DNA from: Oscillibacter sp.
GTDB lineage: Bacteria > Bacillota > Clostridia > Oscillospirales > Oscillospiraceae
Direction of reading: 5' to 3'
Length of the DNA stretch: 34,166 nt
NCBI GenBank assembly: GCA_017482345.1
Contig: JAFUNB010000028.1
Location: 1 to 34,166 of the forward strand
The notes beneath the pieces were generated by a model that was given only the letters and a program-made list of their open reading frames with translations, did no database searches and was not told where the DNA came from. Shown piece by piece: positions 21,420 to 34,166 of the stretch. Both the position numbers and the translations under genes were made by a program. Position 1 is the first letter of the stretch. The number at the start of each line of letters is the position of its first letter.

Positions 21420-21716
21420 TCAAAACACAAACCGATGACGCAGACGAGTACGCAGGATGAGTTTCTCCCAGAGAGCCGCCGATGGTGTGATGGCGGCAGG
21501 AACGACCTTGCTGAATGGACTGCCGAGGGCGGGCTGAACGGGGTTTCCTCAGTAAGTTCCGACGGGTTTTTCCCCCGTTACCATGGAAAGGCGTGTGATG
21601 GCACGTCGCCGAGCGGACGAGTGATCGTCAATTTGGGTGGCACCGCAGAAGTTTTCAGACTTTTGTCCCAAAGGAACCATTGAAATGGGTCCTGGAGGGA
21701 TGAAGGTCTTTTTTGT
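21420..21716 (+). promoter_or_regulatory. T-box leader, tryptophan specifier
   Basis: The T-box sequence AATTTGGGTGGCACCGCAG is at 21630-21648. Stem I occupies about 21430-21530. GAATGGAC at 21513-21520 fits the specifier loop pattern, with codon TGG (Trp) at 21516-21518. This agrees with the downstream TrpB2 gene. Uncharged tRNA-Trp would bind and favour the antiterminator; charged tRNA leaves the terminator at 21658-21714. Specifier assignment is by eye; the T-box itself is certain. Confidence 0.93.
21658..21716 (+). terminator. T-box regulatory terminator
   Basis: GACTTTTGTCCC (21658-21669) pairs with GGGATGAAGGTC (21697-21708) over 12 positions including G-T wobbles, followed by TTTTTT. 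A smaller stem (GGAACCAT with ATGGGTCC, one mismatch) sits inside. Confidence 0.8.
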
Positions 21717-21751
21717 TTCTCCGACCCGCAGATTTGAAAGGAGCAAATACT

Positions 21752-23125
21752 ATGACAACCGAAAAGAACATTCCTTACAAGATCTATCTGTCTGAAAATG
21801 AACTGCCTCACGCCTGGTACAATATGCGGGCCGATATGAAGAATAAGCCCGCTCCCCTGCTGAATCCCGCCACCGGTGAGCCCATGGGCTACGAGGATCT
21901 CCGCCCCGTATTCTGCGACGAGCTGATCCGCCAGGAGCTGGACAATGATACCGCTTATATCCCCATTCCCCAGGAGATTCGGGATTTCTACAAGATGTAC
22001 CGTCCCGCGCCTCTGACCCGGGCCTACTGTCTGGAGGAGAAGCTACAGACTCCCGCCAAGATCTATTACAAATTTGAGGGCAACAACACCTCCGGCTCCC
22101 ACAAGCTGAACTCCGCCATCGCCCAGGCCTACTACGCCAAGCAGCAGGGCCTCAAGGGCGTGACCACCGAGACCGGCGCCGGCCAGTGGGGCACGGCTCT
22201 GTCCATGGCCTGCGCCTATCTGGGTCTGGACTGCAAGGTCTATATGGTGAAATGTTCCTATGAGCAGAAGCCCTTCCGCCGCGAGGTCATGCGCACCTAC
22301 GGTGCCTCCGTCACCCCCTCCCCCTCCATGGATACCGCCATCGGCCGGAAGATCCTGGAGGAGCATCCCGGCACCACCGGCAGTCTCGGCTGCGCCATCT
22401 CCGAGGCCGTGGAAGTGGCCGGTCAGAATCCCGGCTACCGCTATGTGCTGGGCAGCGTTCTGAATCAGGTGATGCTGCACCAGTCCATCATCGGTCTGGA
22501 AGCCAAGGCCGCCATGGACAAGTACGGCATCGTGCCGGACATCATCATCGGCTGCGCCGGCGGCGGCAGCAACCTGGGCGGCCTTATCGCTCCGTTCATG
22601 GGCGAGAAGCTGCGGGGCGAGCGGGACTATCAGTTCATCGCTGTGGAGCCCGCCTCCTGCCCCAGCCTGACCCGCGGCGTGTTCGCCTATGACTACTGCG
22701 ACACCGGTGCCGTCTGCCCCCTGGCCAAGATGTATACCCTGGGCAGCAGCTTCATCCCCTCCGCCAACCACGCCGGCGGTCTGCGCTACCACGGCATGAG
22801 CCCCACCCTCAGCCAGCTCTATGCGGACGGTCTCATGGAGGCCCGCAGCGTGGAGCAGACGAAGGTCTTTGAGGCCGCCGAGCTGTTTGCCCGAGTGGAG
22901 GGCACCCTGCCCGCTCCCGAGTCCAGCCACGCCATCCGTGTGGCCATCGACGAGGCGCTCAAGTGCAAGGAGTCCGGCGAGGAGAAGACCATCCTCTTCG
23001 GCCTGACCGGCACCGGCTACTTCGATATGTACGCCTACGAGAAGTTCCACAACGGCGAAATGAGCGATTATATCCCCACGGACGAGGAGCTGGCAGCCAG
23101 CTTCGCAAAGCTCCCTCAGCTGTAA
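21752..23125 (+). CDS. TrpB2-type tryptophan synthase beta-like enzyme
   Basis: 457 residues from ATG 21752, with AAAGGAG upstream. PLP enzyme: Lys118 in NNTSGSHKLNSA, Glu140 in TTETGAGQWGTAL, phosphate loop GCAGGGSNLGG near 275. The longer N-terminus (RPVFCDELIRQELD; YRPAPLTRAYCLEE) and size match the TrpB2 group rather than the classical TrpB1 of about 400 residues. TrpB2 condenses indole with serine (or phosphoserine in some archaeal relatives) and usually acts without TrpA. There is no trpA or other trp gene nearby. With the Trp T-box, a role in making tryptophan from salvaged indole is likely. It is monocistronic. Confidence 0.9.
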   Translation: MTTEKNIPYKIYLSENELPHAWYNMRADMKNKPAPLLNPATGEPMGYEDLRPVFCDELIRQELDNDTAYIPIPQEIRDFYKMYRPAPLTRAYCLEEKLQTPAKIYYKFEGNNTSGSHKLNSAIAQAYYAKQQGLKGVTTETGAGQWGTALSMACAYLGLDCKVYMVKCSYEQKPFRREVMRTYGASVTPSPSMDTAIGRKILEEHPGTTGSLGCAISEAVEVAGQNPGYRYVLGSVLNQVMLHQSIIGLEAKAAMDKYGIVPDIIIGCAGGGSNLGGLIAPFMGEKLRGERDYQFIAVEPASCPSLTRGVFAYDYCDTGAVCPLAKMYTLGSSFIPSANHAGGLRYHGMSPTLSQLYADGLMEARSVEQTKVFEAAELFARVEGTLPAPESSHAIRVAIDEALKCKESGEEKTILFGLTGTGYFDMYAYEKFHNGEMSDYIPTDEELAASFAKLPQL

Positions 23126-23129
23126 ATCA

Positions 23130-23166
23130 CAAATCCCCTGCTGCGGCGCAGCAGGGGATTTTTTTA
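23130..23166. terminator. Bidirectional terminator between trpB2 and the MATE gene
   Basis: AATCCCCTGCTGC, loop GGC, GCAGCAGGGGATT: perfect 13-bp stem (23132-23160). TTTTT follows on plus. Confidence 0.9.
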
Positions 23167-24495
23167 CGCGTGTTTTCGTTTGTTCCAGAGATACCAGCCC
23201 ATGCACAGGAAAATCTGCACCAGCGAGGACGCCGGTGTGGACAAGCCCAGCTGGAACAGAGAGCCGCCCAAGCTGCTGACCAGCAGCGCCACCGGCAGGC
23301 GGACGCAGAACGCGCCGATAAAGCCCTGTACCATGACGAATACCGTCTGGCCGCGGCCGTTGAAGTAGCCGACAAAGCAGAACAGGAAGCTGGTAAACAG
23401 GCAGTCGATGGCGTAGGACTTCAAATACTCCCAGCCGGCCAGCACCACCGCGGGATCCTCCGCGAAGAAGCCGGCCAGCACATCTCCGCGGAAAAATCCG
23501 GCCCATGCCATGACCACACCGGCCACCAGTGAGGACAGGATGCCCGTCCACAGGGCCTTCTGTGCCCGGTCCTCCCTGCCAGCGCCGATGTTCTGGGCCA
23601 CAAAGGCAGACATGGACTGCATATAGGCCGAGGGTACCAGCATCACAAAGCCGCACAGCTTCTCCGCCACGCCGACGCCGGCAGAGGCTACCACGCCCAT
23701 GCCATTGGCGATAGCAGTGATCACCAGGAAGGAAACGCTCACCAGCAGATCCTGCAGGGCAATGGGCGTGCCCAGCCGCAGGATCCGGCGCATGACGCTC
23801 CGGTCAGGCCGCAGCTCCGTCCGGGTCAGAGTGAAGGGCAGCTCCCGACGCCGGATGATGAGCAGAGACAGCAGCACGCTGACCGCCTGGGCAAATACCG
23901 TGGCAATGGCCGCGCCGGCCACGCCCATGCCCACACCGGCCACCAGCAGCAGATCGCCGATGATATTCAGGACGCAGGCGATCAGCACCGTCAGAAGCGG
24001 CATCTTGGAATCGCCCAGTCCCCGGAAAATACTGCCCAGCAGATTATAGGCGATGATGAACACGGAGCCTGCGCCGCAGATGCGCACATAGCTGACCGTG
24101 CCTGCAAAGGCATCCGCCGGGGCATGCATAACCTCCGCCATTTTGGGGGCCGCAAGAAGTACCGCCGCCGTCATGACCAGCGTCACCACACTGAACAGGC
24201 AAATGCCGCTGCCGACCACTCCGCCGGCCTCCCGGGGCTTTCCCTCGCCGATCTTCTGGCCCAGCAGGACAGTAATGCCCATGGACAGTCCCGTGACGAT
24301 GATCGTCAGGGAATGCATGATCTGGCTGCCGGTAGCGACTGCGGAGATATCCGCCGCCGTTCCGAATTTGCCCACTACCTGCAGATCCACTGCGCCGTAC
24401 ATGGCCTGCAGCAGCAGGGCCAGCAACACCGGCAGCGCAAACTTCAGCAGAGCCGGCAGAATGGGTCCCTGCGTAAAATTCTGATTTTGTTTCAT
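23164..24495 (-). CDS. MATE-family multidrug/metabolite efflux transporter
   Basis: 443 residues from ATG 24495 (MKQNQNFTQGPILPALLKFALPVLL), preceded by GGGAGGGAG. Twelve hydrophobic segments in two homologous halves. DLQVVGKFGTAADISAVATGSQIMH is the first-half MATE pattern (the family usually reads VGxxG-x-xALAA), followed by GISMGITVLLGQKIGEGK-type loop residues (here GLSMGITVLLGQKIGEGK). The second half has AQNIGAGREDRAQKAL. It is of the clostridial NorM/DinF-like type driven by Na+ or H+. Substrate unknown. Expression seems controlled by a dedicated promoter, a short upstream ORF and a terminator in the leader (24492-24635), which is unusual and suggests induction by a ribosome-acting drug or an amino-acid state. 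Confidence 0.9.
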   Translation of the reverse strand: MKQNQNFTQGPILPALLKFALPVLLALLLQAMYGAVDLQVVGKFGTAADISAVATGSQIMHSLTIIVTGLSMGITVLLGQKIGEGKPREAGGVVGSGICLFSVVTLVMTAAVLLAAPKMAEVMHAPADAFAGTVSYVRICGAGSVFIIAYNLLGSIFRGLGDSKMPLLTVLIACVLNIIGDLLLVAGVGMGVAGAAIATVFAQAVSVLLSLLIIRRRELPFTLTRTELRPDRSVMRRILRLGTPIALQDLLVSVSFLVITAIANGMGVVASAGVGVAEKLCGFVMLVPSAYMQSMSAFVAQNIGAGREDRAQKALWTGILSSLVAGVVMAWAGFFRGDVLAGFFAEDPAVVLAGWEYLKSYAIDCLFTSFLFCFVGYFNGRGQTVFVMVQGFIGAFCVRLPVALLVSSLGGSLFQLGLSTPASSLVQIFLCMGWYLWNKRKHA

Positions 24496-24584
24496 GGCTC
24501 CCTCCCTCTTTTCGGGCATATAAAAAAGCCGGATAAGACTCCGGGCGCACCCGGCATCTTATCCAGCTTTGCGATTGCGATCAC
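24492..24584 (-). CDS. Candidate leader peptide (30 residues) of the MATE gene
   Basis: GTG 24584 has GGAGGG (24593-24588) just upstream. The frame reads GTG-ATC-GCA-ATC-GCA-AAG-CTG and continues for 30 residues through the terminator hairpin, ending at TGA 24494-24492, which overlaps the MATE start as ATGA. No domain; two Ile-Ala pairs at the start and Arg/Lys near the end. An ORF across an attenuator that stops exactly on the next start codon is the layout of leader peptides such as BmrB of Bacillus or the Erm leaders. Predicted only; spacing of four bases to the GTG is short. Confidence 0.45.
   Translation of the reverse strand: MIAIAKLDKMPGAPGVLSGFFICPKRGREP
24522..24567 (-). terminator. 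Terminator/attenuator inside the MATE leader
   Basis: On the minus strand GCTGGATAAGA pairs with TCTTATCCGGC (11 pairs, one wobble), enclosing CCGGG-TGCG-CCCGG, followed by TTTTTT. It lies downstream of a promoter and upstream of the MATE ATG, so it must be bypassed for expression. It may also terminate transcripts from the flavodoxin-like gene. Confidence 0.85.
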
Positions 24585-24606
24585 AAGCCCTCCGATGAAC
24601 ACAGAC

Positions 24607-24635
24607 AATCTAACATGATTGGGGAAAAATGTCAA
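24607..24635 (-). promoter_or_regulatory. Promoter of the MATE leader transcript
   Basis: On the minus strand TTGACA (24635-24630), a 17-nt spacer and TAGATT (24612-24607), preceded by TGT (extended -10). It begins 10 bases after the stop of the upstream gene. Predicted start near 24600, only a few bases before the leader ORF's ribosome binding site. Confidence 0.7.
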
Positions 24636-24644
24636 GATTAGCCA

Positions 24645-25202
24645 TTACAGCGTGGCGTTGGGCATGATGCGCACCCTGCCGTCATGGAGGCCGGTCTGGA
24701 ACCACCGGACGATGGGCTCCAGCTGCGCCTCGTCAAAGCAGTCGCCGCCGTGGAGGAACAGGTTCATCATCTCCAGCTCGCTCTCCGTGGCCTTGGGTCC
24801 CTTATCCCGGATCTCCTGCACCACAGAATTGGCCATGGGCTTCATCAGCAGCCTGTGCAGACCCTTCAGCTTGTCCGGCGCATAGCCGCCCCGGAGGTAG
24901 AATACCGGTGCGCCGCCATCAGAATAGCCGCCGTTTTTGCAGGCCACGTCCCACAATCCACCGTTGCCGCCGGGAGACATGCCCACGATTGCCACACCGC
25001 GGACGGTATATTTCTCCACAACGGTGTCCAGACCGCTGGTACGGCCAGCCATCAGCCAGCCCATATAAAAGATGTCGTCGTTCTTACGCAGGTACTTTCC
25101 CGCCTGCTTCAGGGGATAGGCCGGCACACCGGTCTTTTCCGACAGCAGCTTGGCATATCGCTCCGTAAATCCCGTCTGGGACTTGTAAACAATGGCTTTC
25201 AT
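24645..25202 (-). CDS. Flavodoxin-like protein
   Basis: 185 residues from ATG 25202, overlapping the stop of the upstream hydrolase gene (ATGA). The first strand and phosphate loop, MKAIVYKSQTGFTERYAKLL, is flavodoxin-type (S/T-x-TG-x-T), and DIFYMGWLMAGRTSGLDTV fits the second FMN loop. The middle AIVGMSPGGNGGLWDV continues the fold. The C-terminal 60 residues are an extra helical part. Probably FMN-binding and a one-electron carrier or quinone-type reductase; partner unknown. GAGGAG lies upstream. Last gene of a two-gene operon with the DUF2974 hydrolase. Confidence 0.78.
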   Translation of the reverse strand: MKAIVYKSQTGFTERYAKLLSEKTGVPAYPLKQAGKYLRKNDDIFYMGWLMAGRTSGLDTVVEKYTVRGVAIVGMSPGGNGGLWDVACKNGGYSDGGAPVFYLRGGYAPDKLKGLHRLLMKPMANSVVQEIRDKGPKATESELEMMNLFLHGGDCFDEAQLEPIVRWFQTGLHDGRVRIMPNATL

Positions 25203-26368
25203 GAATTTGTCTCCTCTTTCTTTGTCCGGTTCAGCTTTTTCGGCAGCTTTTCCATCTCCTGCTGCAGCTCCTCCCGCAGCACCTTGGCGTTGCTGCGGAT
25301 CAGCACCTTCAATGCATACAGGACCGCGTCCCGTGTATCCTTTTCCATGTCCTTCATAGCGCGGATCATGGCGCCCGCCGCCTTGAGGCTTTCCTCCTTC
25401 AGATCCGTCAGCGTCACAGCGCCGGAGGCGGAGAGCACCTCAAACAGGCCCTCCACAAACTTCTCCCGCTGGTCCAGCGGCATACTCCGGACCCATTCCT
25501 TCAGCGCCCGGTCATTCATCCGGCTCTGGCGGGTCACATCGTCCAAACGAATGAAATGATCGCCTAGCACCGACCAGGAAAAGCCGTCGTGCTGCAGAAG
25601 GCCCTGCTCCACACTGTCCACCACGATATAATCCTCGTCGTGTTCCAGCAGCATGCCCACCACGGAGGACTTGGGCACAATGGACACCACACGCTCCGCG
25701 ATCCGGGCGTACTCCGCAGAATCCAGAATCCTGCGGTGGAAGCCGGGACCGTCATTGGACCAGACGGACTGGATGCGGCGCTGGGTGACAGGCGGCACAA
25801 GCGCCGCGGAATACACCGCCAGATTGCCGCCTTTGGAGTGTCCGCCAAGGCGCAGACGCCGTCTGGGATACTGCCGTGCCACCGCCCGGGTATACTCCAC
25901 GGCCATGCGCTGGGCGGGCACCTCCTCCATGCAGGCCATGTGGAAGTCCTCCTTCCAGCCGGCCAGCGTATCGTCCGTGCCCCGGAAGGCAATGTAATAC
26001 AGACCGTCGCCGGTCTCGATGGTCAGAGCGGAAAACTGTACCGCCTGCTCCGTGTCCAGCCAGTCCACATAGCAGCTCAGCCGCATATCCCGGAACCGCC
26101 GGGACGCTGCCGTCTTTTTCAGCAAAAGCGGAATCGTATCCGGCACCAGAACACCCATGTCAATGGCCGCACCGGCAGGAACGCGGGCAAACACCTGCTC
26201 CGCCGCCTCCCGCAGGGAAACGGCTCCACTGGCGCCCGGTTCAGGCACGATGCCCCGGAAATCCACAAAGGACAGCTCGGCCAATATCAAATTGTCCACC
26301 TCGTTGAACGGTGCCTGCGCCAGAGTCAGATCACCGCGCCAGTCCAGATAGTCAAACAGATTTGCCAT
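25199..26368 (-). CDS. DUF2974 (Mbeg1-like) alpha/beta-hydrolase
   Basis: 389 residues from ATG 26368 (MANLFDYLDWRGDLTL), with AAGGAGG upstream. The nucleophile elbow is GGHSKGGNLAVYSA (Ser178), preceded by YYIAFRGTDDTLAGWKEDF, which resembles lipase-type oxyanion and lid segments. SNDGPGF and the region after ERVVSIVPKSSVVGMLLEH should carry the acid, and DDVTR or later the His. This whole pattern is the DUF2974 family found in Firmicutes. A cytosolic esterase or lipase is probable; the C-terminal 100 residues are Lys/Glu-rich and helical. It overlaps the flavodoxin-like gene by four bases. Confidence 0.82.
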   Translation of the reverse strand: MANLFDYLDWRGDLTLAQAPFNEVDNLILAELSFVDFRGIVPEPGASGAVSLREAAEQVFARVPAGAAIDMGVLVPDTIPLLLKKTAASRRFRDMRLSCYVDWLDTEQAVQFSALTIETGDGLYYIAFRGTDDTLAGWKEDFHMACMEEVPAQRMAVEYTRAVARQYPRRRLRLGGHSKGGNLAVYSAALVPPVTQRRIQSVWSNDGPGFHRRILDSAEYARIAERVVSIVPKSSVVGMLLEHDEDYIVVDSVEQGLLQHDGFSWSVLGDHFIRLDDVTRQSRMNDRALKEWVRSMPLDQREKFVEGLFEVLSASGAVTLTDLKEESLKAAGAMIRAMKDMEKDTRDAVLYALKVLIRSNAKVLREELQQEMEKLPKKLNRTKKEETNS

Positions 26369-26392
26369 AGCGTCCTCCTTTTGATCCTTTTT

Positions 26393-26421
26393 ATTATATG
26401 CTACATTTTCTCCCAACACAA
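26393..26421 (-). promoter_or_regulatory. Promoter of the DUF2974-flavodoxin operon
   Basis: On the minus strand TTGTGT (26421-26416), 17-nt spacer and perfect TATAAT (26398-26393). The ATG is at 26368. Confidence 0.6.
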
Positions 26422-34060: not shown

Positions 34061-34063
34061 GTG

Positions 34064-34166
<103 letters not shown>

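Follow-up and report, generated by a model that had tools for sequence, protein, structure and literature searches.

A candidate transcription-terminating riboswitch ahead of unrelated efflux pump genes

We analysed the leader of a gene for a MATE family efflux transporter in a stretch of DNA of 34,166 nucleotides from Oscillibacter sp. (assembly GCA_017482345.1, contig JAFUNB010000028.1), referred to below as the window. On the minus strand, the stop codon of a gene encoding a protein of 185 amino acids (24645) is followed by a promoter at 24635-24607, then by the leader at 24600-24521 and by the MATE gene, whose ATG at 24495 is supported by homology; a second in-frame ATG is found at 24519. 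The original prediction was that of a translation-dependent attenuator, in which a ribosome stalled on an open reading frame (ORF) of 30 codons opens a terminator. The sequence features that it named are all present: a TTGACA/extended -10 promoter after the preceding gene, a GGAGGG ahead of the ORF start (24593-24588), and an ORF that starts with GTG at 24584-24582, runs through a strong terminator and ends with TGA at 24494-24492, its stop overlapping the MATE start. The features of the locus, all on the minus strand, are the following.

24607..24635, minus: promoter, with TTGACA at 24635-24630, a 17-nucleotide spacer and TAGATT at 24612-24607 with a TG extended -10 (10/12 matches)
24521..24600, minus: complete conserved leader RNA, made up of an aptamer-like domain and the terminator (covariance models R1 and R2)
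24594..24597, minus: 5' strand of helix P1, CAUC (own versus swapped pairing; nascent fold)
24590..24593, minus: 5' side of the internal loop, GGAG (unpaired in the nascent fold)
24565..24589, minus: hairpin P2, variable in sequence and length, including the GTG of the ORF
24559..24564, minus: 3' side of the internal loop, GGAUAA, also in the terminator 5' arm
24555..24558, minus: 3' strand of P1, GAUG, of which the first three bases belong to the terminator 5' arm as well
24522..24568, minus: intrinsic terminator, with a 13-bp stem that includes an inner hairpin (together 24568-24527) and a U tract to 24522
24492..24584, minus: 30-codon GTG ORF, not conserved and judged incidental
23164..24495, minus: MATE family efflux transporter (PF01554, E 6.8e-44; TIGR00797)

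The 103-nucleotide stretch 24500-24602 has a folding energy of -44.5 kcal/mol (z -3.6), and none of 200 shuffles was equally stable. The promoter of the window proves little by itself, because one such site is found in 2.9 kb and shuffles give 1.0. The parts observed are raised above chance by their conservation across 70 related leaders. In a first aligned set, two conserved blocks, UUCAUCGGAGGG and CCGGAUAAGAUG, flank a variable hairpin. As this set had been chosen by pattern, its invariance was partly guaranteed by that choice, and covariance models were therefore built and genome scans run. Model R1 was made from 12 rows that did not include the window and model R2 from 42 matches that did; the window leader scores 57.3 bits (E 4e-14) with R1 and 78.2 bits with R2. 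The 70 leaders comprise 42 rows of alignment A4, five more and 23 from a scan of a second class, each split into strands, loop cores and hairpin; left aside were L090, L092, L105 and L106, judged to be chance matches, and the weak matches L032, L033 and L091.

Comparison of these leaders indicates that the conserved entity is a fold with an internal loop and not a reading frame. The 5' core of the loop, GGAGG, is found in 62/70 leaders and the 3' core, GGAUAA, in 66/70, whilst the helix enclosing them varies in sequence and keeps its pairing. P1 is CAUC/GAUG in the consensus and occurs also as CCAUC/GGUGG (L078), UGCU/GGCA (L077, L082, L111, L125), GGCU/GGCU (L080, L088), CACU/GGUG (L101) and CUC/GAG (L127); in L022 it is UUGU/ACAA by eye and has three pairs by program. 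Over 31 distinct strand pairs, the mean pairing energy was -2.36 kcal/mol for own strands and -1.06 kcal/mol for swapped strands, a difference reached in 0/5000 permutations, and the 18 distinct pairs that differ from the consensus type gave -2.11 versus -0.85 kcal/mol (0/5000). When the nascent RNA was cut after P1, at least three P1 pairs formed in 60/70 leaders, compared to an expectation of 23.4 when the 3' strand is shuffled. The span of P2 between the cores is 11-34 nucleotides, the shortest (11-14 nucleotides) being those of L127, L120 and L118, and P2 is on average more stable than mononucleotide shuffles (mean z -2.07; 51 of 65 distinct hairpins below -1). A 12-row alignment contains little variation in P2 and the terminator, and there 94.4% of cells were paired versus 92.6% after shuffling.

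The position of this fold in the transcript can be predicted from the promoter. A site with at least 10/12 matches lies 5' of the RNA in 58/70 leaders, for a shuffle expectation of 0.6, and among the 61 leaders scoring at least 9 the end of the -10 element is 13-14 nucleotides before the loop in 52. Because this distance is kept, the transcript is predicted to start near 24600, about 6-7 nucleotides before the loop, at or just 5' of the P1 5' strand.

The 3' part of the fold is shared with the terminator. In 66/70 leaders the terminator 3' strand is able to pair at 8 or more of 9 positions with the region around the 3' loop strand (19/70 for shuffled 9-mers), and a U-rich tail follows it in 64/70. 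Because the terminator 5' arm includes the 3' loop strand and most of P1, the aptamer and terminator folds are mutually exclusive. In the window, the nascent RNA adopts the P1-loop-P2 fold (-12.5 kcal/mol) and the full leader the terminator fold (-38.2 kcal/mol), so that the default state is expected to be OFF. That the MATE gene is attenuated by a terminator downstream of a promoter of its own, as first proposed, is well supported by these comparisons; control through translation of the leader ORF is not, as detailed below. In six leaders (L103, L104, L122, L123, L128, L129), which precede MFS genes of the second kind described below, the terminator loop carries a long insert and the match is 136-146 nucleotides long instead of about 80.

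The genes downstream of the RNA were analysed by tblastn at 44 places other than the window's own locus (15 from a scan of 391 genomes of the class, 6 from a scan of the phylum and 23 from the second-class scan, the mirror-strand matches L093 and L108 being left out). In 36/44 places an efflux transporter is encoded within 1 kb on the 3' side, and in 0/44 on the 5' side. These are 22 MATE proteins, 13 MFS proteins of two kinds (the first Bcr/CflA-like) and a single SMR protein, Qac-like, whose frame is broken in the assembly. Pfam searches confirmed the class of L077, L080, L084 and L086 (MatE), L102 and L103 (MFS_1) and L107 (SMR); the SMR gene matched a Qac model at 7e-19 versus 9e-9 for SugE. 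At 40% identity, 62 downstream proteins fell into 8 groups, one of them (L020) a wrong-frame artefact, leaving four groups of MATE proteins, two of MFS proteins and one of SMR; at 50% identity there were 10 groups. L033, L078, L089, L091, L112, L114, L120, L121, L130 and L131 were outside this clustering, being broken, weak or non-transporter.

Several loci carry particular arrangements. In one genome (G474) the RNA is found both before an MFS pump (L102) and before an SMR pump (L107). On one contig of G963, two leader copies about 2.3 kb apart (L114, L131) each precede a MATE-like start. A cytidylate-kinase-like gene (PF13189) is located between leader and MATE gene at L091; at L078 the MATE gene is broken and is followed by a frame that by eye appears similar. 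The weak match L033 (23 bits) lies 5' of a GNAT acetyltransferase gene.

Close relatives of the MATE protein (E<=1e-80) were found in 5 of the 36 same-genus genomes among 60 related genomes examined, and all five genes have the leader (L017-L021). Among four more remote relatives from the same taxonomic order (L022-L025), a leader match was detected in L022 only (E 1.5e-4). Among public contigs with a MATE relative, 23/40 loci carry the leader; four of the 17 others (L043, L059, L061, L073) contain no DNA 5' of the gene. The R1 scan (E<=0.01) found the RNA in 16/391 genomes of the class, and R2 scans (E<=0.001) in 6/398 genomes of the phylum and in 25/250 genomes of the class of G474; in the family of G515 it was found in 6/17 genomes, all six already among the second-class matches. 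These counts include weak matches and the own genome (391 and 398 sets) or the centre genome (250 and 17 sets), and three genomes are common to the phylum and second-class scans. The RNA is thus present in two classes of one phylum, Bacillota going by named relatives; named isolates are Murimonas intestini DSM 26524 (L045, in a record flagged UNVERIFIED_CONTAM) and Subdoligranulum variabile, on a plasmid (L101). The genome of the window has 16 MATE-like places, one leader and a weak mirror match on the opposite strand. A pattern scan of viral contigs gave four stretches: three coding-like by eye, and the RNA before a further MATE gene (L153) about 26% identical to the queries. In Rfam 15, no family scored above its gathering threshold at the window or at 28 other leaders (29/70 scanned), and sub-threshold matches were isolated (E between 0.34 and 6.9 for the window, E 0.99 for L070). 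A literature search found no prior description of the motif among the matches listed, which include the accessible parts of PMC2965389, PMC2864571, PMC11477304, PMC6429828, PMC8632094, PMC11109978 and PMC13273304; supplements and most subscription journals were outside its coverage.

A conserved and covarying aptamer-like fold, an expression platform that excludes it and a place ahead of functionally related genes from unrelated families are among the marks of a riboswitch, and they are found together here. The leader RNA probably senses a harmful chemical directly: we think it likely that it works as an ON riboswitch through transcription termination, belongs to a class that was not found in Rfam 15 and responds to a toxic compound exported by the pumps. 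Transcription would begin about 6-7 nucleotides before the loop, so that the first bases build P1. As the polymerase leaves the aptamer, P1, the GGAG/GGAUAA loop and P2 can form, as folding and covariation show. In cells lacking the ligand, the later-made CUUAUCC strand would capture GGAUAAG, the overlap of the two being observed, and the resulting terminator would stop transcription. A toxic small molecule held in the internal loop would instead stabilise P1 and block the terminator, and the pump would be made. Because unrelated exporters follow one RNA, the ligand is expected to be a compound that these pumps remove and that is toxic to the cell.

Several observations weigh against this interpretation. 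The permutations of P1 take no account of descent, although they were limited to distinct pairs; P1 is weaker than -0.7 kcal/mol in L057, L089, L107, L120, L121 and L131 and equal to -0.7 in L022, and it is missing from 10/70 nascent folds. The shuffled control for the terminator overlap (19/70) is not low. Eight of the nine queries came from these loci, so that 8 of the 36 transporter hits are queries matching themselves and 28 are not, and eight of the 44 places have no downstream transporter match (L089, L090, L092, L105, L106, L121, L130 and L131, the last with a MATE-like start visible by eye only). Finally, the sensing could be done by a protein.

The regulation of multidrug pumps is generally attributed to repressor proteins. 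If the riboswitch interpretation is true, the hosts would have protein-free sensing of toxins through an RNA that precedes pumps from four groups of MATE and two of MFS as well as an SMR pump, and the ligand of this RNA, once found, would reveal the export substrate of uncharacterised pumps. A wider proposal, possible and rather doubtful at present, is that of a widespread, previously unreported class of riboswitch whose minimal aptamer, about 33-50 nucleotides at the 5' end, would sense planar aromatic toxins or drugs by stacking them in a loop that is rich in purines and resembles a laboratory-selected flavin mononucleotide (FMN) aptamer, and would turn on MATE, MFS and SMR pumps, as the RNA counterpart of multidrug-sensing repressors. 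Its small size, simple form and position at the predicted 5' end of the transcript make the aptamer directly testable in vitro.

The neighbourhood of the locus contains two further genes and, elsewhere in the window, three RNA features.

24645-25202, minus: gene for the 185-amino acid protein, 5' neighbour of the leader (no Pfam match)
25199-26419: Mbeg1-like gene, next beyond it (Pfam search)

A T-box leader (RF00230, 101 bits) at 21426-21673 on the plus strand, 5' of a gene for a pyridoxal phosphate-dependent enzyme (21713-23125), is the sole T-box of the window, and none was found at the MATE leader. A S-adenosylmethionine riboswitch (RF00162, 85 bits) is located at 944-1036 and a 5S rRNA, truncated by the contig end, at 34062-34166, both on the minus strand.

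Other explanations of the leader were weighed against the riboswitch. Systems of the BglG/LicT type rely on antitermination by an RNA-binding protein, which recognises a hairpin that overlaps a terminator and has an asymmetric internal loop. The present leader has this very form, and its conserved purine loop could serve as a protein site, so that an inducible protein binding the P1-loop-P2 hairpin might block the terminator. We consider this unlikely: the hosts belong to two classes and the pumps to seven groups, a P2 reduced to 11-14 nucleotides in three leaders gives a protein little grip, and no common regulator gene was noticed beside the genome-scan places, whose neighbours were not systematically surveyed. 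The stalled ribosome of the original prediction can draw on the purine-rich sequence before the GTG and on an ORF spanning the terminator up to the MATE start. However, in relatives that keep the promoter, the terminator and the RNA, the start codon and the frame are lost, an outcome that the original prediction had named as refuting it. A start codon lies 4-12 nucleotides after the GGAGG core in 27/70 leaders, compared to 35/70 and 31/70 at two control offsets, such an ORF is open through the hairpin in 19/70, and the GTG is missing from L019, of the same genus. In addition, GGAGG is accounted for as part of the loop, the GTG belongs to P2, and there are only 4 nucleotides between GGAGG and GTG. 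A translated attenuator of the BmrB/Erm type, for which a conserved start codon and frame are expected, was rejected on these counts, and leader translation as the control of this pump is highly improbable. That the terminator serves only the upstream gene, the pump having another promoter, could be suggested by the end of the 185-amino acid gene 77 nucleotides before the terminator stem; the promoter just ahead of the RNA in most leaders leaves this explanation with almost no credence.

The possibility that the leader is a diverged guanidine-IV or Gd4v riboswitch, which would sense guanidine or a related compound, deserves closer comparison. In the available parts of the published accounts, guanidine-IV (mepA motif, GGAM-1) is a terminator-based ON switch 5' of MATE and SMR genes (PMC7736828, PMC12186494) in which two distant loops, one of them in the terminator hairpin, pair with each other (PMC7736828, PMC11611296, PMC12186494). 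Gd4v, an orphan variant of it, is described in the corresponding parts of its report as preceding MATE and GNAT genes in gut bacteria, supposedly acting likewise, with a hairpin on top of the terminator and a pseudoknot between two hairpins (PMC9788692). The present RNA resembles the former in its downstream MATE and SMR genes and its terminator, an ON action being inferred here, and the latter in its occurrence in gut bacteria, its inner hairpin atop the terminator and its MATE and GNAT genes, the GNAT gene resting on the weak match L033. However, its fold is one nested hairpin that has its internal loop at the 5' end of the RNA: the first conserved strand is located at the predicted start, ahead of every hairpin, and P1 encloses the variable P2. 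Two hairpins with a loop-loop pseudoknot and conserved loop bases were not found, the comparison being with the published description and not with sequences. Because the 5'-terminal P1 strand cannot be enclosed by a hairpin, the RNA is set apart from guanidine-IV and Gd4v as published. The SMR protein here is Qac-like and not SugE-like, and a SugE-type exporter occurs in 0/36 transporter-bearing places (for the eight without a transporter, the family search covered neighbours of the L091 type only). The transaminase that is the main gene of Gd4v was not seen here; a search of 60 genomes for its family, aimed at a Gd4v sequence, gave no protein above the cut-off. A search for guanidine-IV through SMR genes gave six loci from 118 genomes, and as five of the six and a Paraclostridium plasmid carry guanidine-I, the comparison rests on published descriptions. 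We consider a guanidine switch very unlikely and the leader a candidate for a new structural class of riboswitch, distinguished from guanidine-IV and Gd4v by their descriptions.

RNAs that respond to planar compounds offer another comparison. The yjdF (azaaromatic) riboswitch is proposed, in the part of its report available, to induce the response to planar compounds that are toxic (PMC4793209). Its RNA and its gene are different from those described here, and the 29 scanned leaders gave no Rfam match above threshold. A variant of the FMN riboswitch is built on the large FMN aptamer. According to an excerpt of the report, this variant senses lumichrome or lumiflavin and is an ON switch 5' of a drug exporter of C. 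difficile (PMC11477304). In contrast, the scanned leaders gave no match to the FMN family. There is also a likeness to an FMN aptamer selected in vitro, with the loop AGAAGG/AGGAUAU. Compared by eye with this loop, the leaders appear to have a purine-rich internal loop of similar topology and to share GGAUA as well as A-G-G, and L121 has AGAAGG itself; most leader 5' strands are one base shorter, and a C/U-G pair replaces a mismatch. Combined with the known RNAs for planar compounds, this likeness may provide a lead, and a lead only, to the ligand of the leader.
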